Below, one piece after another: positions 609 to 10,215 of a DNA stretch of 64,000 nucleotides. Under the pieces are notes generated by a model. That model was not told the origin of the DNA and did not search any database. It saw only the letters and a list, made by a program, of their open reading frames with translations. The DNA comes from Gilliamella sp. Pra-s52. GTDB taxonomy: Bacteria > Pseudomonadota > Gammaproteobacteria > Enterobacterales > Orbaceae. Position numbers and translations under genes: made by a program. Numbering within the stretch: position 1 is the first letter of the stretch; each line of letters opens with the position of its first letter. Location: assembly GCF_009795805.1 (NCBI RefSeq), contig NZ_WTEY01000001.1, forward strand, positions 248,001 to 312,000, in the 5' to 3' direction.

Positions 609-1544
609 ATGGAATATGAAAAGTATGAAAATCAAATAGATACGTTGTTAGCAAAAAAATACAGAATTACCACCATTAATAGAACTAATAATTGTGTTAA
701 TACAAAAATATATAATAGTTCAGAAATTAAAGAATTTAAAATATATAATGAGTTATACAATTTAAATAAAAATGGTTCAGATATTTATATAACACCGCTT
801 AGTAATTATTGTTATTATTTAGTAATTGATGATATAAAAACAGAAGAAGCAGTTAATGAACTAAAAATGGAATTTGGAAAACCTATACTTCGTTTAGAAA
901 CTTCTGAAAAAAATTATCAATTTATTTATACAGTTAGCAAAAAAGAAGCGAATCAAAAGCTTGCTAATTTTTTTGTGCGAGCAATGAACAAAAAATATGG
1001 TGATCCGAATTTTTCTGGAGCTGAACATGCATTTCGAGTTGCTGGATTTAGAAATAAAAAAGAGGGTAGAAATGATTTTTTAGTCAGAGCAATTAAAGAA
1101 GATGATATACGTTTTAAAGTTTTTAATTTTCTAAAAATTATGGATGAAAATGAATATATTCAAAATTGCATTAAAAATCCAAACATTTTACTTACTACAA
1201 ACAATACTAACAATAATAACGATATTGAAATTAACGAAATAAAACAAGTGGATAGAAATAGTGAAGAATATTTAGAAATTAGTAAATTCTTTAATAAAGA
1301 AAAAAATCGATTTATAGGTTTAGCTAAAAAACAAAAATGGGTTTTAGATGATAGTGTAATTGATTTTAACGCAATAAAAAACACGCTGAATAAATATTCA
1401 GAATATAAGAATATTTGTGCAGCTGTTTTAGATGATAATAAAAGAGAACATACAGAAGATTACACAACAAGAACTATTAACAAAGTTTTGGATAAATTAG
1501 AAGAAGAACACAAAAAAGAAAATAAAAAAGGTTTTAGTATATAA
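609..1544 (+). CDS. RepB/MobA-type DNA primase domain protein
   Basis: A 311-residue protein. Residues about 70-170 resemble the primase domain found in plasmid RepB' and MobA-RepB proteins (DNA-primase RepB-like family): an acidic VIDDI segment, then LETSEKNYQFIYTVSK, then YGDPNFSGAEHAFRVAGFRN. In that family the domain makes primers for replication of transferred single strands. The C-terminal third is charged and Lys/Glu-rich with no recognised domain. The start is supported by an AAAAGAGG site. It lies inside a conjugative-type island, which fits priming during transfer or episomal replication. No helicase or initiator gene is seen beside it. Confidence 0.7.
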   Translation: MEYEKYENQIDTLLAKKYRITTINRTNNCVNTKIYNSSEIKEFKIYNELYNLNKNGSDIYITPLSNYCYYLVIDDIKTEEAVNELKMEFGKPILRLETSEKNYQFIYTVSKKEANQKLANFFVRAMNKKYGDPNFSGAEHAFRVAGFRNKKEGRNDFLVRAIKEDDIRFKVFNFLKIMDENEYIQNCIKNPNILLTTNNTNNNNDIEINEIKQVDRNSEEYLEISKFFNKEKNRFIGLAKKQKWVLDDSVIDFNAIKNTLNKYSEYKNICAAVLDDNKREHTEDYTTRTINKVLDKLEEEHKKENKKGFSI

Positions 1545-1596: not shown

Positions 1597-2736
1597 TTAG
1601 TACAATATAGTAATATTCTTTTTATATTTATTAATAACACTATTACTATTACTATAGTTAAAATCAAAATTATAATTTTTAGTGTGTTTTATTTTATGCG
1701 TTGCTGTTGCTTCAAACTTTCTACCGCCACCGCCACCCCGCTGGTAGTTGCCGTAATAAGTTTGTGACTTATCGACACGATGTCCTAAAAAAGCAGCTAT
1801 AGTATCTTCATCCGTTTTTGTGCGCTTTAAGTCACTTGCAACTTTATGTCTAAAACTATACAAACTTACAGCAGTTCCATATTTTCTATAAAAAAATTTG
1901 CTTAGACTTTTATAAGTTTTTTCATTTTGCTCTATTTTATAAACACCGCCATTTTTAAGTTGTTGTCTAAAAACATTTTTATAAAATTCATTATGTAATT
2001 CATTATCTTTTTCAAGCGTTGTAGTACAAATTCGAACATCTTGACCCGAATGTTTGCCGATTTTTGCGCCTTTTATCGTCGCTTCAATTACATTTTCTCC
2101 ATTTTCATCCTGCTTTAATTTTAAACTAACACCCTTTTTAAATTCAGCAGGTCTTAACCCAAAAAGTTCATAAACTATTAAAATATCTTTATATTTTTTT
2201 ACACAAACTTCATCCATGTTTTTTAAAATATTTTTAAGTTCAGGCATTTTATTTAGCGTTTTTCTTTTACTATTCACTCTTTCAAAAATTATACTTTCTT
2301 TATTCAGCTCAAAATTATCTTTTAAAATTATTGCTAAATCAAAAGCTTGATTAGTTAACTCTATCATTTCATTCGTTTTTTTGTTTTTTCGTGCGTAATC
2401 CGATTTTTTTTGTAATTCTTTGATTTCGTTAATTAGTCCAAACTTCAGCGAAGTTCTATACAAATCATAAGTTGATCTCGTTTTTGCTTTATGTAGCAAT
2501 AAATTAATTTCAGATTTTTCAACATTTTTATTGTTATTTATTAATCTATTATATACTTTCAAATAAGTTTCATAAGTTGCTTTATTGCTTGTATAATGCT
2601 CATTTAGCTCATTTACAATTTCATTAATTTTTTTGTTTTTACAAATACCTACAACTGTATTTTCTAATTTTGCTTGTTGTTCAATTTCGCTTAAATATTC
2701 ATTTTTTAGCTTGTTTTGTAATAATGTAAGTTTCAT
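1597..2736 (-). CDS. Tyrosine recombinase, divergent integrase-like
   Basis: A 379-residue protein. The N-terminal half is helical and charged. The C-terminal catalytic domain shows the first arginine in LFGLRPAEFKKG (about residue 195), a box II of the form YSFRHKVASDL, LGHR, and a tyrosine pair in QTYYGNYQ. The usual box-II HxxR reads YxxR, so one catalytic position differs. A run of five glycines (RGGGGGRK) and a tail rich in Asn and Lys follow the tyrosine. The start is supported by AAGGGGG 5 bases upstream of ATG. It is separate from the integrase beside the tRNA and may resolve or invert element DNA, or be a second integrase from a nested element. Confidence 0.8.
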   Translation of the reverse strand: MKLTLLQNKLKNEYLSEIEQQAKLENTVVGICKNKKINEIVNELNEHYTSNKATYETYLKVYNRLINNNKNVEKSEINLLLHKAKTRSTYDLYRTSLKFGLINEIKELQKKSDYARKNKKTNEMIELTNQAFDLAIILKDNFELNKESIIFERVNSKRKTLNKMPELKNILKNMDEVCVKKYKDILIVYELFGLRPAEFKKGVSLKLKQDENGENVIEATIKGAKIGKHSGQDVRICTTTLEKDNELHNEFYKNVFRQQLKNGGVYKIEQNEKTYKSLSKFFYRKYGTAVSLYSFRHKVASDLKRTKTDEDTIAAFLGHRVDKSQTYYGNYQRGGGGGRKFEATATHKIKHTKNYNFDFNYSNSNSVINKYKKNITILY

Positions 2737-2781
2737 AATGCCCCCTTATTTTTGTTATTATTTTTCTTAATTTTTGTTTTG

Positions 2782-3336
2782 TTTTTCTCGCTTTTTTGCT
2801 CAAAAAACAAAGTCCAAAAATTAAAAAAATTCATTGTTTTTATTGATTTTTTCACTTCGTTTTTAAGCTTTTTTGCTCAAAAACTCTTTTCAAAAATCAC
2901 TAAAAATTCCATTTTTTTTTAATGAAAAATTGGGGCATATTCACTTTTTTTTATTTTATTTTTTTTGTATTTTTCTCGCTTTTTTGCTCAAAAAATCCAA
3001 CAAAAAATAAAATTAATGCTTACATTTTGCTTATTTATTTTTGCTTACATTAAGCATTTTTAGCCTTATTAATTTTTTATGTTTTTTTGCTTTTCGCTCA
3101 AGCTTCAAATCAAAAAAAATAGAAAAATTAAACGGCTAATTAGTTAATTAAAAAATTGCTTTTCGCTTCAGCTTCAAATCAATATTTTCAATTAACTAAC
3201 ATTATTCTATCTTCGTTAAGTTCTTCACTTGCTCGCTTCGCTTGCTCGTTCATCTCAAAACTCGATACAATAATGGGGGCAATTTTGGCTCATCGCCAAT
3301 CCGCTATCTTTCGCTTTTCACTTCGTTCAAATCAAA
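2782..3336. repeat. Dispersed degenerate repeat, core GCTTTTTTGCTCAAAAA
   Basis: Near-identical copies with TTTTTCTCGC before the core are at about 2782-2807 and 2970-2996. A shorter one is at about 2867-2884 (AAGCTTTTTTGCTCAAAAAC). Related forms with GCTTTTCGCTCAAGCTTC and GCTTTTCGCTTCAGCTTC lie near 3088 and 3158, and a shorter GCTTTTCACTTCGTTCAAATC near 3312. The spacing is irregular. They could be iteron-like binding sites or decayed repeats. Confidence 0.5.
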
Positions 3337-3350
3337 ATATAGCAGACCAT

Positions 3351-3590
3351 TGCCCACATTATTAGGACAATAAAATTGTCCGAATGAATGTATATTTTGT
3401 GTCCAATTAATTTGTCCAATTAATTAGTCCACTTTCATTATGCCCACATCTATTTATTTAATCAGTTTTAGCATTTTGTCAACGCTAACCTGTTACTTTT
3501 TATTAATTTTTTCACAAAAAAATTGAAGCTATTCGCATCAATTTTTCACCTCAAAATTATTAAAAAGCTATAAAAAGTGGTGGGCATAAT
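3351..3590. repeat. TGCCCACAT sites in direct and inverted orientation
   Basis: TGCCCACAT occurs at 3351 and 3441 in the same orientation, and its inverse appears as GTGGGCATAAT at 3580-3590. Weaker relatives are TGGGGCATAT at 2931 and ATGGGGGCAATT at 3272. GC-containing words of this length stand out in such AT-rich DNA. They may be protein-binding sites of the element. Confidence 0.4.
3365..3439. repeat. GGACAAT palindrome followed by 13-bp GTCC iterons
   Basis: A perfect palindrome GGACAAT-AAA-ATTGTCC (3365-3381) is followed by three 13-base units beginning at 3401, 3414 and 3427. The first two read GTCCAATTAATT plus one base, and the third keeps only GTCC at its start. The exact 13-base register suggests iteron-like binding sites. 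Confidence 0.5.
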
Positions 3591-3765
3591 TCAAAATTTG
3601 AGCTATTTTTTTTAATTAAAAATAGCTTTTTTTTGCTTATTTTTTTTTAAAAATTTTGGTGAAATTTGCTTATTTTTTTTAATCAAAAATTAGTAAAATT
3701 TAATAAAACTAATTGGTTTTTTTTGACAAAAAAACACACAAAATAAATAAATTAAACACAAAAAA

Positions 3766-3786
3766 AAAGAGGCTTTTAACCTCTTT
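3766..3786 (-). terminator. Intrinsic terminator of the DotA/TraY-like gene
   Basis: Arms AAAGAGG and CCTCTTT with a seven-base loop lie 16 bases after the stop codon. Read on the minus strand the stem is followed by a run of eight or more T. Confidence 0.85.
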
Positions 3787-3802
3787 TTATTTAGTATTTA
3801 AA

Positions 3803-6472
3803 TTATTTTTTAGTATTTCTATTGTTGTAATTTATCAAAGTTTCATCCAATCCAGATTCTCTTGCTTGATCTACTGGTAATTGTTTACCTAAATCTTTTG
3901 CTTGTTGCATATAAGCATTAGCTTTTGTTCTGTCACCTGCTTCAAAAGCAAGCTTGGATAATGCTAATTTACTATTTGCTTGTTGCGCTAAACTGTCGAA
4001 CTCTTGCTTTGTAGCAGTTTCATTATATGCATTTTCAAGCATATTCAGATCTTCTTTTTTATTCATTTTTTCTTGTTGCTGTGCTTGTTCTTTTTGCTGT
4101 ATTTCTGCTTGTTTTGCTTGTTGTTTTTTATTAGCAACAGCGTTTGCTTTAAAGGCATTTACTTTATTTCCTGCTCCTCTTGCTACACTACCCATTTGAT
4201 CTAAACCAACTTTTGCCATTGCTGCTTTTGCCATTGTTGTGTTTTGAGATTCTTTTGCATAAGAAGCTAAGCTTTGTCCAGCATTGACATTTAACCATTT
4301 CATAATTTCATCGGGAATAACATGTATTAATGAAAATGATTTGTTTATAATACTGTACAAAACACCAAAGTATACAAATAAAATTGCTATTGTTTTTATT
4401 ATACTACCCCCCGCAATTCCCGTTAAAGCTAACATAGCAGGGAAAGTTTCTGATAATAGACCACCCAAAATATTTAACATTTCAATTGCGCAGATTAAAC
4501 CTATGATCATTAAAGTCGGTCTTAAAGCAAGCGACAAAACAAGCCCATATCCAGTACTTCCTTTACCAGTGAAACCGTCGGCATCAGGTTGTAATTGTGT
4601 CACTACCCATAGCGGAGCAGCTACCATAGCTTCTAACACTAATATCATCCAACCGCCGACCATACCAAGCCATAGCATGTAAGGAGTAAGTGGTAATAGT
4701 ACAGACAGTGAATTACCGACGATCCAAAGGCTAATAGAAATTGGCATAAAAGCGACAACAGCTATAAGCGCATTACCAACAATAGATCCCGAAAAAATCC
4801 CAGCAACCCCAGCTACTCCTGCGCTTACACCAATTACAACACTACCTAAATTTATTGCTAAATCTCCATAGTATTTTGCTATAGTAATCGGATTTATTGA
4901 ACCTGCTGAGTCCTGCATCGTCTTCACCAGACTGTGCGCAGAAGCATTGCCGTCACTGCTAAACGGGTTAATTGAAAACGAAAAAGTATTACTTGCTTCT
5001 TTATTTATACCATTAAAAATTCCTGTAATTGCTCGACTTCCTGCGTCACCATCTTTCTTATTTTTTTGCTCGTATTGTTCATATTTTGCCAACGCTTGTT
5101 GAGTTAATCCATTGACATGCTTACTATTAGCTGAACTTGCTTCTAAATCACTACTTGCTTTATTCATCACCGACGATAATTCAGTTCCTTGCCAAAGTTG
5201 TTCAAAACTAAAGCTTGGTTCCACGCTAACTGGTGTTAAATTAGCTAATTGCCCTAAAATTTCTTGTATTTGAATTAATCTTATACTCCATGAACCTGCT
5301 AACATCCATCCATCTTTTTTGACTGACTCAGTAAAAGAATCCCAAGCATTAGTCTTTTTAAATGCTTGTTCAATAACAAACGCATTATTTTTTTTGTACG
5401 CATCTATTGCTTCATCAATTTTTGCTTGTAAATCAACGCTGTTAGTATCTTTATAATACTGACGTGCTAACAAAGACATATCTGAATGTAGTTTATTCAA
5501 AAAATAAACTTGATTTTGTAATACAGTATCAAATAAAGGTGCTAAGTTTTTGTAATCTCCCAATTTTTTATCTAAATCATTGCTTTTAGTTTGTACTATA
5601 TAAGCACCGCAAGCACGCAAATCCCTGCCAATTTTATAATTTTTATTGTCGATTTTTATTGAATTAGCCATGCCATTTATAGAACCGCTAACGCCCGCTA
5701 TTTGATCTGCACCAAAACTTAGGTATTGAAATGGTAATTCAAAAATTTCAGGTTTTAAACTATAACCATAATAACCGCCAGTGCTTACATAATTATATGA
5801 TTTTCTAGAAATTTCTTTATTTATTTGATTAACGTTAGATTTTGGTGAAACCCACTTGCTTGACAATTCAACATCTTCTTTACCAATCTGTTTATACAAA
5901 TCATTTGTTGCTACAACGCAAAGATTTGATAAAAAAACCTGCTTAGCTAACGTGTCTATTTTTTGGTTTGAAATATTAGGAACAACTACACCATTAGCTA
6001 CCCCCATATTTGCTACATATTCTTGCCATACATGGGAAGCCGCCCCAATACTCATTTGAATAACCCAAAGCATAAACATTTGTATAGCACAAAAACCACC
6101 TGACACAGGGACTAAAAAAGCAGTACTTGTAGCCATTCTTATTGGCAACCACATAGATGACCATTTTTTACCTAGAATTTCACCGTCATGCGCTGTAGAC
6201 ATTGTTCCAGCCATTAACGTATAAGCTACAATAATACCGCCAACCATTAACACAACACTATTAAAAGCTAACAAAGCGGCGGAAAGTGGACTTTTAGACA
6301 TATCATCCTCGGGAAAATAGATATCTAAAAATAATTTTTTTGATATATCAGTGTCTTCTATGTTAAATAAATCTACATCTACAGCATTAGCAAACGCATT
6401 GCTAGTAAACATTAATAATAATGTTATTAGTGTTATAAACACTAAATTCTTTTTATAAATACTAATATTCAT
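3803..6472 (-). CDS. DotA/TraY-like conjugation (type IVB secretion) inner-membrane protein
   Basis: An 889-residue protein with a signal peptide (cleavage near SNAFANA), membrane spans near residues 65-90 and 125-150, a large soluble domain to about 530, then several spans to about 750 and a Gln/Lys-rich coiled-coil C-terminus. The segment TAHDGEILGKKWSSMW followed by LVPVSGGFCAIQ is typical of the DotA/TraY family, polytopic proteins of I-type conjugation and Dot/Icm systems. In IncI plasmids TraY also interacts with the exclusion protein ExcA. The start has an AAGAGGTAAG ribosome site. No other Dot/Icm or Tra genes are in the window, so they would have to lie to the left or be missing. Confidence 0.82.
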   Translation of the reverse strand: MNISIYKKNLVFITLITLLLMFTSNAFANAVDVDLFNIEDTDISKKLFLDIYFPEDDMSKSPLSAALLAFNSVVLMVGGIIVAYTLMAGTMSTAHDGEILGKKWSSMWLPIRMATSTAFLVPVSGGFCAIQMFMLWVIQMSIGAASHVWQEYVANMGVANGVVVPNISNQKIDTLAKQVFLSNLCVVATNDLYKQIGKEDVELSSKWVSPKSNVNQINKEISRKSYNYVSTGGYYGYSLKPEIFELPFQYLSFGADQIAGVSGSINGMANSIKIDNKNYKIGRDLRACGAYIVQTKSNDLDKKLGDYKNLAPLFDTVLQNQVYFLNKLHSDMSLLARQYYKDTNSVDLQAKIDEAIDAYKKNNAFVIEQAFKKTNAWDSFTESVKKDGWMLAGSWSIRLIQIQEILGQLANLTPVSVEPSFSFEQLWQGTELSSVMNKASSDLEASSANSKHVNGLTQQALAKYEQYEQKNKKDGDAGSRAITGIFNGINKEASNTFSFSINPFSSDGNASAHSLVKTMQDSAGSINPITIAKYYGDLAINLGSVVIGVSAGVAGVAGIFSGSIVGNALIAVVAFMPISISLWIVGNSLSVLLPLTPYMLWLGMVGGWMILVLEAMVAAPLWVVTQLQPDADGFTGKGSTGYGLVLSLALRPTLMIIGLICAIEMLNILGGLLSETFPAMLALTGIAGGSIIKTIAILFVYFGVLYSIINKSFSLIHVIPDEIMKWLNVNAGQSLASYAKESQNTTMAKAAMAKVGLDQMGSVARGAGNKVNAFKANAVANKKQQAKQAEIQQKEQAQQQEKMNKKEDLNMLENAYNETATKQEFDSLAQQANSKLALSKLAFEAGDRTKANAYMQQAKDLGKQLPVDQARESGLDETLINYNNRNTKK

Positions 6473-7531: not shown

Positions 7532-7579
7532 TTATTTAAATAATAAGGCTTATTTGTGTTAATTACAAGGAATAAAAAA

Positions 7580-7873
7580 ATGAAAAAAATAATTAGTTTT
7601 GTGTGTGTTAGTGTTTTAGGTTTTGTTTTAGTTGGTTGTGGCGATAAAAACACAATTATTTATGATTTAAAAGCAGGTAAAGCAACAGCAAGCGGTTTTG
7701 ATTCTCAAGCTCCAAATGTAAGTGGTTTGAATTATATGAAAATTATGAATGAGATTAGTAAAAATTGTAATATTGATACTGTAACACTTGCTATAAATTT
7801 AAATACTGATGGTAAATATACTACAGGAGTATGTAAAAACGGCATTACTTACAAATTAATTAATGCTAAGTAA
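7580..7873 (+). CDS. Small lipoprotein, first of a tandem pair
   Basis: The chosen ATG gives 97 residues and follows AAGGAA; an in-frame start 24 bases upstream is less likely because it spoils the signal peptide. The N-terminus MKKIISFVCVSVLGFVLVGC is a lipoprotein signal with lipobox LVGC, so Cys20 would be lipidated. The mature part has two further cysteines (near KNCNIDT and GVCKNG), possibly a disulfide. The next gene is a paralogue with the same two cysteines and a C-terminal TCKNG/VCKNG-Y-K-IN pattern. Function unknown; possibly a surface protein of the element such as an exclusion lipoprotein. Confidence 0.7.
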   Translation: MKKIISFVCVSVLGFVLVGCGDKNTIIYDLKAGKATASGFDSQAPNVSGLNYMKIMNEISKNCNIDTVTLAINLNTDGKYTTGVCKNGITYKLINAK

Positions 7874-7892: not shown

Positions 7893-8201
7893 ATGAAAAA
7901 AATAATTAGTTTTGTGTGTGTTAGCGTTTTAGGTTTTGTTTTAGTTGGTTGTGGCGATAAAAACATAATTACTTACGATTTTTTAACAGATAAAGTTACG
8001 TTAAGCGATAATTTTGATGAAAGTATACAATTACCAGCTGATAAACATTATGCTGTACTACTTAGTGAAATGGTTAAACACTGTAATTTAACAGAAGAAG
8101 ATTATAATAAAGCTACTACTCAAATGCTAAAAGAGGGAGAATATACATCGAGTACTTGTAAAAATGGTGCTGTTTATAAGTTTATTAACATGAATAAATA
8201 A
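7893..8201 (+). CDS. Small lipoprotein, second of a tandem pair
   Basis: A 102-residue paralogue of the preceding gene, 19 bases after it, with ribosome site AAAGGGG. The first 20 residues are identical to those of its neighbour, including lipobox LVGC, and the DNA of this part is almost identical too, while the mature domains have diverged strongly apart from KHCN-like and TCKNGAVYKFIN segments. This implies tandem duplication with recent conversion or purifying selection of the signal region. The two mature parts may have different partners. No known family is recognised. Confidence 0.7.
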   Translation: MKKIISFVCVSVLGFVLVGCGDKNIITYDFLTDKVTLSDNFDESIQLPADKHYAVLLSEMVKHCNLTEEDYNKATTQMLKEGEYTSSTCKNGAVYKFINMNK

Positions 8202-8250: not shown

Positions 8251-8739
8251 TTATAATGTTATTGGGAGTTTTACCTTTTTATTTTGTTTTTCAATTTTAA
8301 ACTTATTTAATAAGTATTCTTTTTCTTTTAAATTACATTTTTTAGTAATTTCACTTCTATTAAAATATAAAAAACTTCCAATTTTATAACATGTTAACTT
8401 TAATTCTTTATTTTCAAAAAATTCTTTACTTTTATTAAGTAATATAATTGCTTCTTTTTTTGTTATTAAATTTTCTAAAATTATTTTTTCATTAACTTCT
8501 TCTTTATTATTTAAATTAAATATTTTATTATTTGTATACATAGCAACTAATCGTTGATTTTCTAGCCATTCCTCTATTTCTACCCTTTTAAATCTGCTAT
8601 TTTTCCCAATTTTTATTTTTTTTGGAAAGTCAATATCAGGATTTTTACAATATTTATCTATAGTTCTTCTTGTTATTTTTAATAAATTTTCTACATCATT
8701 TACTGTTAATAATTCTATATTTTTATATTCTTCCATCAT
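8251..8739 (-). CDS. AlpA/excisionase-like protein with two helix-turn-helix units
   Basis: A 162-residue protein. Residues about 8-60 (LLTVNDVENLLKITRRTIDKY to FKRVEIEEWLENQR) match the AlpA/MerR-like winged helix of phage and island excisionases. Residues about 88-132 (LITKKEAIILLNKS to LYFNRSEI) look like a second, weaker copy of the same fold. Family members bind att DNA or activate the integrase promoter and so control excision. It lies 44 bases downstream of the integrase on the same strand, fitting an int-xis type unit. Either of the first two ATG codons could be used. Confidence 0.7.
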   Translation of the reverse strand: MMEEYKNIELLTVNDVENLLKITRRTIDKYCKNPDIDFPKKIKIGKNSRFKRVEIEEWLENQRLVAMYTNNKIFNLNNKEEVNEKIILENLITKKEAIILLNKSKEFFENKELKLTCYKIGSFLYFNRSEITKKCNLKEKEYLLNKFKIEKQNKKVKLPITL

Positions 8740-8783: not shown

Positions 8784-9992
8784 TTAAAAAATAGAAAATT
8801 TACCAGCGTTTTTTATGTAATCAGCCCACCACTCCAACATTTCACGCCGTTTATCTAAATAAAGAGCTTTATTATAAGTTGCTCGAACAGTGTTTTTATC
8901 TACATGCGCTAACGATAATTCAATAATGTCAGGATTAAATAAACCGCTTTCGTTTAACGCAGTACTTGCTAAACTTCTAAAACCATGCGCAACTAAAATA
9001 CCTTTATAACCAAGCCTTTTTAAAGCGTTATTAGCTGTTTCCAAGCTTATATGCCCTGATTTTGTTTTAGTACTACTAAAAACATAGTTATTTTTAAAAT
9101 CAGCTTCTTTCATTTCATTTAATATATTAATGGCAAGTTCGGGTAATGGAACGATGTGATCACGGCGCATTTTCATTTTTTTAGCTTTAATAGTCCATAT
9201 TTTGTTTTCAAAATCGATCTCGCTCCATTCGCATTTAACAGCTTCAGCAGGGCGAGATAAGGTAATTAGCTGGAAATACATCAAAAGCTTCGTAGAACGC
9301 TCTAAATTCGCATTATTAACCGTTTTTAAGATATTTGGTAGCTCAGCAGGGGGCAGGGTAGGGCGTGGCGTTGGTGTGTGCGTAGGTAATATCTTTTTTA
9401 AGTGTTGTATTTTGTTATACTCAATATAATTTTTAATAACAGCAAAATCAAAAACATTATTTAAGTATTCACATAATCTTTTTATTAAATCAGTTTTTCC
9501 ACAACTTTTAATTAATTCATCAAAATCGGTTGCTTTACAGTCTTTTATTTGTTTATGTGCTAATTCAATATCTTTATTTAAAATATATTTTGTAAAAGAA
9601 CTTTCTATTTTTCTCAAGTGTTTTTCGGTCACTTTATTTTCTTGCTTTTTTAACTCAAACCATTCTTTAAATACATTCCTTAATTGCGATGCTTCATTAC
9701 CTATTTTTTTTAGCTCTTCATTTTTTTCAAAAGCCATCGGATCTATTTTTTCTTTTAACAAATCTAAATATTGTTGTTTCTTTACTCTCACATCAGCAAA
9801 ACTTACAGCAGGATATTTTCCCAAGCTCATCATTTTTTGTTTTTTAGTTATTGGATGTACATATTTAAAACGCCACAACTTAGCACCAGTTGTTTTAACT
9901 AATAAATATAATCCATCCCCATCATTTAAGTAATAATCTTTATTTTTAGGTTTAGCATTACGCAAATTTAAATCTAGCAATTTCTTTTTCAT
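8784..9992 (-). CDS. P4-type tyrosine integrase next to tRNA-Arg
   Basis: A 402-residue site-specific recombinase. The N-terminal domain (DYYLNDGDGLYLLVKTTGAKLW) is the DUF4102-type arm-binding domain of P4-like integrases, followed by a SAM-like core-binding domain and a catalytic domain. Catalytic residues visible are R in LSRPAEAVKCEW, the HGFRSLAST box, H in LAHVDKN, and tyrosine in ATYNKALY. It integrates elements into tRNA 3' ends, and the nearest tRNA 3' end is about 200 bases upstream of its start. The protein is full length and appears intact. Confidence 0.93.
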   Translation of the reverse strand: MKKKLLDLNLRNAKPKNKDYYLNDGDGLYLLVKTTGAKLWRFKYVHPITKKQKMMSLGKYPAVSFADVRVKKQQYLDLLKEKIDPMAFEKNEELKKIGNEASQLRNVFKEWFELKKQENKVTEKHLRKIESSFTKYILNKDIELAHKQIKDCKATDFDELIKSCGKTDLIKRLCEYLNNVFDFAVIKNYIEYNKIQHLKKILPTHTPTPRPTLPPAELPNILKTVNNANLERSTKLLMYFQLITLSRPAEAVKCEWSEIDFENKIWTIKAKKMKMRRDHIVPLPELAINILNEMKEADFKNNYVFSSTKTKSGHISLETANNALKRLGYKGILVAHGFRSLASTALNESGLFNPDIIELSLAHVDKNTVRATYNKALYLDKRREMLEWWADYIKNAGKFSIF

Positions 9993-10081: not shown

Positions 10082-10190
10082 AAGCATGCTTAGTGCTTCT
10101 CAAGTGTTCCTTTTAGTTCTCATTAAACTTAAATAAATTGTTATTTTTTAATTGGTTACAACGAATTGAAAAGGGTTTGTAAGTAGTGAA

Positions 10191-10215
10191 TGGCGCACCC
10201 GAAGGGATTCGAACC
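10191..10215. other. Probable attachment-site core at the tRNA-Arg 3' end
   Basis: This is the acceptor and T-arm end of the tRNA-Arg that borders the island. Its acceptor 3' strand (CGGGTGC, discriminator G) differs from that of the two neighbouring tRNA-Arg copies (CGGATGC, discriminator A), while the T-arm is identical. That pattern fits replacement of the tRNA end by element DNA at integration. The matching second att site lies outside the window. Confidence 0.5.

Follow-up and report, generated by a model that had tools for sequence, protein, structure and literature searches.

The window analysed here, a stretch of 64,000 nucleotides from Gilliamella sp. Pra-s52, reaches into an element of 13.26 kb that is integrated at a tRNA-Arg(TCG) gene of this Gilliamella genome (a 2.49-Mb assembly). 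The right attachment repeat of the element, AATGGCGCACCCGAAG (16 bp), lies in the 3' end of the tRNA-Arg(TCG) gene at 10189-10204, and its left copy is found outside the window at L006:16930, 13,259 bp away. The left flank of the element is present in 33/35 genomes of the genus. Six loci were scanned, and in four of them tRNA-Arg(TCG) directly abuts this flank; the remaining ones are the occupied locus itself and that of G010, in which no tRNA is in reach. Measured in 2-kb steps, most of the element has a G+C content of 23-27%, which rises to 34% in the DotA gene; the surrounding DNA has 28-41%.

From the left, the element encodes a protein of 190 aa without a family assignment, a Rep_3 initiator (L006:17892-18686, about 4 kb from the segment under study; Rep3_N, E 5.9e-39), proteins of 144 and 98 aa, a RepB_primase-domain protein (609-1544, plus strand) and a tyrosine-recombinase-like (TR-like) protein of 379 aa (1597-2736, minus strand), for which a role as a MobK-type relaxase is proposed below. 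Beyond the segment at 2737-3802 follow a DotA/TraY family channel protein of 889 aa (3803-6472, minus strand; TIGR04346, 363 bits with the cut-off at 100), small proteins, an AlpA/excisionase-like HTH protein (8251-8739, minus strand) and an integrase with Arm-DNA-bind_3, Phage_int_M and Phage_integrase domains (8784-9992, minus strand). Another stretch that is largely non-coding, about 1.1 kb long, lies between the Rep_3 gene, which it adjoins, and the gene of the 144-aa protein (L006:18687-19788). Two of the small proteins (7556-7873 and 7893-8201) are tandem and similar, look lipoprotein-like by eye and are possible exclusion proteins. Twelve element proteins were scanned with Pfam (the 144-aa protein in part, the protein at 7893-8201 left out), and no classical relaxase was found among them. 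An integrase, attachment repeats at a tRNA gene, empty relatives, a putative relaxase and no full secretion system mark this as a predicted integrative and mobilizable element. In another Gilliamella genome (G006, locus L017), Rep_3, TR-like, AlpA-like and integrase genes have the same order next to tRNA-Lys, and DotA is absent. There, a 3'-5' exonuclease/RNase_T-like gene adjoins the TR-like gene (L017:13207-13764), as it does beside the MobK-like genes of two Citrobacter plasmids (L072:607-1338 and L076:1074-1787).

Repeats and predicted folding of the segment

On one side the segment is bounded by the start of the TR-like gene, and on the other by the 3' end of the DotA/TraY gene. The first-pass annotation had described it as a gene-free kilobase with several types of repeats, and both parts of this description stand: the only open reading frames between the two genes are of 40-69 aa and are read as chance, all of the repeat types were recovered, and the folding of the segment beats dinucleotide shuffles. 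Three 64-nt units are built around GCTTTTTTGCTCAAAAA (2757-2820, 2834-2897 and 2945-3008). A GGACAAT/ATTGTCC palindrome at 3365-3381 forms the centre of a core site on the minus strand (3357-3389) with imperfect 13-bp arms and a 7-bp spacer, ATTCATTCGGACA-ATTTTAT-TGTCCTAATAATG. Next to it, at 3400-3430, are two exact 13-bp direct repeats (3400-3425) and a partial third, assigned to the minus strand and reading TGTCCAATTAATT on the plus strand; they resemble the core arm, with two mismatches against the arm pattern, so that the GTCC iterons of the segment look like half-sites of the core. The sequence TGCCCACAT is found at 3351 and 3441, and its inverse, GTGGGCAT, at 3580. The core is the proposed binding site of the relaxase, with the putative nick presumably in or near it.

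The GCTTTTTTGCTC units of the segment are the tips of predicted hairpins, and the repeat types, together with two long hairpins, make up one ordered structure; neither the structure nor the long hairpins were part of the first-pass annotation. In the direction of the TR-like gene, the direct half-sites and the core palindrome come first, then a three-way junction and the two long hairpins, and last the three A/T-rich hairpins and the ribosome-binding region. Folding was predicted as for single-stranded RNA, with z-scores against dinucleotide shuffles. On the TR-sense strand, z is -4.47 for 3256-3446 (0/200 shuffles as good), -7.10 for 2737-3056 (0/100) and -3.00 for 3056-3256 (1/200). Folding of the opposite strand is better than expected by chance as well (-2.74, 2/200; -6.92, 0/100; and -3.71, 0/200, respectively), and the z-scores therefore cannot point to one strand.

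The predicted three-way junction (3277-3355, minus strand) lies directly 3' of the core and consists of an outer stem, GGGCAAT/ATTGCCC, a hairpin A (3300-3347) and a hairpin B (3285-3299, TTGGCGATGAGCCAA). The core hairpin itself has seven predicted pairs, because CATTATTG at 3268-3275 is an alternative partner for the remainder of the right arm. The two long hairpins, likewise predicted on the minus strand, carry the tips GAA-GC-TTGA-GC-GAA (3069-3131) and GAA-GC-TGAA-GC-GAA (3140-3199). The three A/T-rich hairpins, predicted on the same strand, coincide with the 64-nt units; the first and third have the tip GA-GC-AAAAAA-GC-GA and the second has a degenerate copy, GAGCAAAAAAGCTT. In the third (2945-3008), an inner C-G pair is replaced by T-A in the close Gilliamella element of genome G033 (L016), a compensatory change, and these hairpins (2757-3008) are seen as such only in these two elements. 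Finally, the ribosome-binding region of the TR-like gene (GGGGGCATT, 2737-2745, minus strand) is predicted, from sequence and fold, to be sequestered by AATATGCCCC at 2932-2941 on the same strand, and a comparable pairing is predicted in L016 and L017. Known RNA families in the window amount to four tRNAs and nothing else.

The motif AGCGA occurs seven times on the TR-sense strand in 760 nt of the segment and not at all on the other strand. G-runs in the segment comprise only GTGGGC, beside the core, and GGGGGC, in the ribosome-binding region. The core right arm joined to GTGGGC is found without mismatch in 2/35 genomes of the genus, both times within this element. With two mismatches allowed, the same 35 genomes yield five more matches, compared with 15 for a reversed control; orphan origins of transfer (oriTs) of this kind elsewhere in the genus were accordingly dropped as a candidate, the DNA pattern giving none above control. 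A search of the element's own genome with the whole segment returned elsewhere only weak matches of 43-66 bp.

The TR-like protein and its relation to MobK

Three TR-like relaxases have been described (PMC8152469). One of them is MobK of the Klebsiella pneumoniae plasmid pIGRK, the oriT of which lies upstream of the mobK gene, and Tyr179 of MobK is needed for transfer and nicking (PMC8152469). A family HMM built from ten members, with MobK left out, matches MobK over the catalytic domain with 86.1 bits, and it scores about 0 bits against two integrases, the element's own and that of L017. A profile-profile comparison with MobK gives a probability of 99.1 and an E-value of 1e-18, with 29% identity in the aligned catalytic region. 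The catalytic domain of the window protein is a DNA_BRE_C domain in which the catalytic R, K, H/Y, R and H and the Tyr nucleophile are all kept. R195, K225, Y293, R296, H297, H319 and Y328 are invariant in ten aligned sequences, and Tyr179 of MobK aligns with the invariant Tyr328. The first-pass annotation rightly placed the repeats beside a recombinase, but the relaxase is most likely this very protein.

At its N terminus (residues 1-145, block pLDDT 62-93), the window protein carries an additional helical domain that is absent from MobK. MobK, TcpM and MpsA are reported to be without the core-binding and arm-binding domains of recombinases (PMC8152469). In a structure model of the window protein (mean pLDDT 70.6, residues 320-379 below 50), the best structural matches are the Tn1549 integrase and Cre, which cover both domains at TM-scores of only about 0.3. 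The model suggests that the N-terminal domain is likely a core-binding domain, and on the same grounds the branch of the family to which the window protein belongs could consist of true recombinases instead of relaxases.

Relatives are found mainly on very small plasmids. A tblastn search with the window protein matched 27/72,556 plasmid records, 17 of them at a coverage of at least 80% and all below 60% identity; 26 of the 27 are 2.3-3.8 kb long, and a like layout is seen in very small plasmids from hosts that include E. coli and Klebsiella. MOB-suite calls all 27 non-mobilizable, a verdict that it also gives to pIGRK. Within the genus, the TR-like gene is present in 3/35 genomes. Among the matches listed for 394 genomes of the order, those above 28.2 bits outside Gilliamella are G256 (73.7 bits, with a core upstream) and six from g40 (44-58 bits). 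A search of 50,697 phage records at E 1e-5 gave no match and viral_contigs gave no confirmed match, and with both searches empty a phage origin was set aside. A separate Rep protein accompanies the TR-like gene in pIGRK (annotated as RepL), pSM76 (Replicase, PF03090) and pW11NP1 (protein rep), and a separate Rep_3 does so in this element and in G006, where it lies beside the TR-like gene. ColE1 RNAI was sought in 11 plasmids, with one match, below threshold (L023, 36.6 bits against 47). In pPZG500 (L024), the TR-like gene is annotated in two pieces (1991-2365 and 2362-2991), and its close relative L015 has one open frame; an E. coli record of 17,603 bp (L057, NZ_JBYPZB010000004.1) contains several copies of a TR-like plasmid unit, either a multimer or an assembly artefact.

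Conservation of the upstream architecture

For the oriT of pIGRK, whose minimal form is 186 bp long, PMC8152469 describes inverted repeats, a pair of identical direct repeats, four copies of AGCGA and a G-rich run, the last being a putative G-quadruplex that is needed for transfer. In the pIGRK sequence (NC_011405.1), positions 884-1250 hold exactly four AGCGA on the sense strand and none on the other, identical direct repeats GAGCAAAGCGAA, which contain AGCGA, at 1074 and 1192, and the G-rich GGGGGGAGGG at 1156. These contents agree with what is published for oriT1, and its parts can therefore be matched to the description in PMC8152469. The same stretch of pIGRK has a core palindrome, which we infer to be the IR2 of PMC8152469, an adjoining stem and hairpin tips like those of the window; hairpin B is absent.

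Other relatives show the same arrangement. A 2345-bp E. coli plasmid, whose one annotated gene is the TR-like gene (the protein is 33% identical to that of the window), has TGTCCCAATAATGTGGGC upstream of this gene, where the window has TGTCCTAATAATGTGGGC. In other plasmids CATTATTG...CAATAATG is kept, the G-run is mostly kept, and the inner arm bases vary together on both sides. The site of the Polaromonas plasmid pW11NP1 reads CCATTATCG-TACACAGTG-CGATAATGG, followed by a GGTGTTTG...CGAACACC stem. The core spacer is 7 bp in the window and 4-9 bp in the other sites read.

For folding, 16 upstream regions were chosen because a core palindrome had been seen in them (pIGRK and 15 others, some of them near-copies). 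Among these chosen regions, the core hairpin is predicted in 16/16, the adjoining stem in 14/16 (not in L014 and L030) and the full three-way junction in 11/16. Outside these counts stand seven loci in which no core was seen upstream of the homolog, namely L025 (pSM76), L026 (pH6NP1), L059 (Roseomonas) and L052-L055 (f26 and g40; 53-58 bits), in the last four of which the TR-like homolog lies behind another recombinase gene. Also outside them are L029, at a contig end; L019, L023, L024, L027 and L057, in which the core was seen and which are kin of counted rows; the MobK-like plasmids L072, L073 and L076, again with the core; and L075, with a core-like palindrome. Pairs were counted on stem halves chosen by eye, because the MAFFT alignment was judged by eye to misplace the hairpins, and the hand-picked halves bias the following figures upward: 74/76 cells are paired in the outer stem (12 rows), with changes on both sides at 6/7 positions, and 42/45 in hairpin B (nine rows), values that 0/2000 shuffles reach in either case. 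The near-copies L016, L058, L030 and L056 were left out of both counts, and L060, L051 and L071, which are without hairpin B, were left out of the second.

The candidate hairpin tips favour one strand. The pattern GA-XX-loop-YY-GA, which marks candidate tips only, was found 17 times on the TR-sense strand of 11 regions and once on the other strand (L014), compared with a mean of 2.1 and a maximum of 6 in 300 shuffles; it is present in 8/11 regions, five times in the window, and absent from L013, L020 and L051. Similarly, AGCGA occurs 42 times in sense and twice in antisense over 16 partly related regions (the L060 row being taken after the gene start), with a shuffle mean of 7.25 and a maximum of 16 in 300. 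In the leader of an E. coli plasmid (L013:560-628), a hairpin is predicted in which GA/GA and TT/TT 2x2 mismatches alternate every few pairs, and better folding is consequently expected of one strand than of its complement.

The closest comparison is that with L016. The intergenic kilobase is 92.7% identical over 1078 columns (83-100% per 60-column block), and the TR-like gene is 89.4% identical in nucleotides and 94% in protein, with 49/86 fourfold sites identical (57%). The non-coding DNA is therefore held tighter than silent sites. Absence of conservation in related islands, or a scatter of the repeats over the genome, had been named beforehand as what would speak against a functional site; the segment is instead conserved in L016, and the exact core pattern was matched in this element only.

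The segment as a probable origin of transfer

Taken together, these observations make it probable that the segment is the oriT and leader of a mobilization module of the MobK type, carried by a mobilizable element that derives from a plasmid and has integrated. What the sequence itself shows is homology to MobK, catalytic residues that are intact, a pIGRK-like architecture, constraint on non-coding DNA and precise integration, and from these we infer nicking, the strand that is used, transfer and a role for each hairpin. Like the pIGRK oriT, the segment is non-coding, lies directly upstream of the putative relaxase gene and contains inverted repeats, direct repeats and AGCGA. By this reading, the TR-like protein would bind the core (3357-3389) and the adjoining half-sites (3400-3430), Y328 would cut one strand in or near the core, and the protein would remain on the DNA. 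The TR-sense strand would then adopt its folded form, with the core hairpin followed by the three-way junction and the GA-tipped hairpins in a row. These folds might serve as marks for the relaxosome, shield the single strand or hold it in position, or be the place where second-strand synthesis begins. The last of these roles is proposed because a tyrosine recombinase is expected to hold the 3' end and so to block priming, an argument made in PMC8152469. The secretion channel would come from a co-resident conjugative system.

The main rival is that the segment is a recombination site, in which case the TR-like protein would be a resolvase, or else the second integrase of the element, and the core would serve as its crossover site for multimer resolution or integration. 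The complete set of recombinase catalytic residues, the best matches of the structure model (Cre and the Tn1549 integrase, at low TM-scores) and arms around a 7-bp spacer, which look like such a site, are consistent with this notion. We nevertheless consider it unlikely: among the characterised homologs found, the closest is a relaxase, and a like core lies in its oriT region; ordinary resolution would have no use for DNA that is structured to one side of the core and has its tips on one strand; and the element already has its own integrase and attachment sites. The repeated plasmid units of the 17.6-kb E. coli record would also be odd given an efficient resolvase, although they may be an assembly artefact.

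It is less probable still that the segment acts as RNA only, as a leader that regulates the TR-like gene or yields a small RNA like sgm-sRNA, with the oriT elsewhere. The predicted sequestering of the ribosome-binding region and the covarying stems fit such a function, and SGI1 requires an sRNA encoded between mpsA and oriT, in a like position (PMC9299015). The core palindrome and the direct half-sites, however, suit a dimeric DNA-binding enzyme, and the corresponding stretch of pIGRK works in cis as an oriT (PMC8152469). A role for RNA may exist on top of that of the oriT.

The weakest alternative, and the second half of the earlier label "candidate oriT or oriV", is an oriV at which A/T-rich DNA is melted by the TR-like or the Rep_3 protein once it is bound to the iterons; the A/T-rich DNA with its iterons, the Rep_3 initiator and RepB primase of the element, and the 2345-bp E. 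coli plasmid annotated with a TR-like gene alone would suit it, but separate Rep proteins are present in pIGRK, pSM76, pW11NP1, this element and G006, like sites lie beside the TR-like gene in plasmids without an annotated Rep_3, and the catalytic residues are strictly kept, rendering it highly improbable. The separate Rep genes and this strict conservation argue against the TR-like protein as an initiator, and the idea of an oriV served by a TR-like Rep, which arose from 2.3-kb plasmids with the TR-like gene as the only recognised one, was set aside because of the former. The element's own oriV is likelier to lie in the non-coding stretch beside the Rep_3 gene than in the segment. The oriT half of the label is well supported by the homology to MobK and the pIGRK-like architecture.

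Considered as an oriT, the segment can be compared with known systems. It shares with pIGRK the same catalytic set in the protein encoded directly downstream, the core palindrome, the adjoining stem and GAGC-N-AGCGA tips on the same strand. It differs in that MobK has 242 aa and no N-terminal helical domain, compared with 379 aa in the window, and in that pIGRK is a 2.3-kb plasmid rather than an integrated 13-kb element; the window also has more hairpins and direct half-sites, and it has no G-run comparable to the GGGGGGAGGG of pIGRK. Tiny cryptic plasmids, among them pMTY13867_untypable2, pPZG500 and pSTN0717-72-4, encode proteins of the same family (about 28-34% identity) behind a like upstream architecture, but they are free plasmids with no annotated integrase, Rep_3 or DotA and with other arm sequences. 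TcpM (MOBM) of the Clostridium perfringens plasmid pCW3, likened here by description, is also a TR-like relaxase with an oriT upstream of its gene (PMC9299015 and PMC12857230). SGI1 is an integrated mobilizable element with a TR-like relaxase and an oriT upstream of the relaxase gene (PMC6414798, PMC9299015), and it carries genes for subunits of the helper's secretion channel (PMC11389934). Unlike the Gilliamella element, it uses IncA/C helpers and encodes TraN/G/H rather than an I-type DotA/TraY, and it has a separate MpsB that resembles a core-binding domain; MpsA is likened by description.

TR-like relaxases are a poorly understood way to start conjugation, and the family described here ties the proven case of pIGRK to integrated elements of a bee symbiont and to plasmids typed as non-mobilizable. 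It suggests a common oriT anatomy, natural variants of which would be useful for locating the nick site and the roles of the hairpins, and, if the reading is true, many small "cryptic, non-mobilizable" plasmids can be mobilized. Among the matches listed from titles and abstract openings of the open-licence literature, there was nothing on the TR-like family in Gilliamella, nothing on a common structure of TR-relaxase oriTs and no mobilizable element with DotA/TraY.

Identity in the DotA/TraY protein is strikingly uneven between the two elements that encode it. Compared with the homolog at L016:3064-5748, the identity of the protein per 50 columns is 0.96-1.00 in columns 1-150, 0.64 in 151-200, 0.12-0.36 in 201-400, 0.36-0.60 in 401-600 and 0.72-0.98 in 601-900, in elements whose TR-like proteins are 94% identical. 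From this profile, the middle of the protein (about aa 200-400) may differ through exchange or fast divergence. In the Dot/Icm system of Legionella, the central channel assembly is made up of DotA and IcmX (PMC12857230). According to PMC8004404, traY and excA co-vary in IncI1 plasmids, one variant pair constituting a different entry-exclusion system, and PMC11389934 reports that an SGI1-encoded TraG reshapes the apparatus of the helper. By analogy, the element may insert its own DotA/TraY into the channel of a helper, and the divergent middle suggests an SGI1-like remodelling of an I-type helper. A broader and quite tentative idea, to which we give distinctly less credence than to the oriT itself, is that TR-like relaxases form a family, some members of which have a second domain like that of recombinases, and that folded single-stranded DNA (a crossover-like core, a conserved three-way junction and GA-tipped hairpins) is read as structure by the enzyme or its partners. 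The Gilliamella element would then add a DotA/TraY with an exchanged middle, rebuilding the I-type channel of its helper and escaping entry exclusion, as an I-type counterpart of the TraG of SGI1.

An I-type helper was sought in the element's own genome by TraY only, with no further TraY match. In the genus, a TraY match is found in 3/35 genomes, two of which represent this element and the third of which, G029, has it beside IncI1-like genes. G029 encodes IncI1-like TraO, TraW and TraY, this TraY being about 25-27% identical to the protein of the element. In G029, a genome of a single contig (L078/L079, G029:C1:2192001-2232000), TraO, TraW and TraY lie within about 20 kb of genes of a Bacteroides-type conjugative transposon, which include MobC (1084 bits), a TraG ATPase (1449 bits) and TraM.
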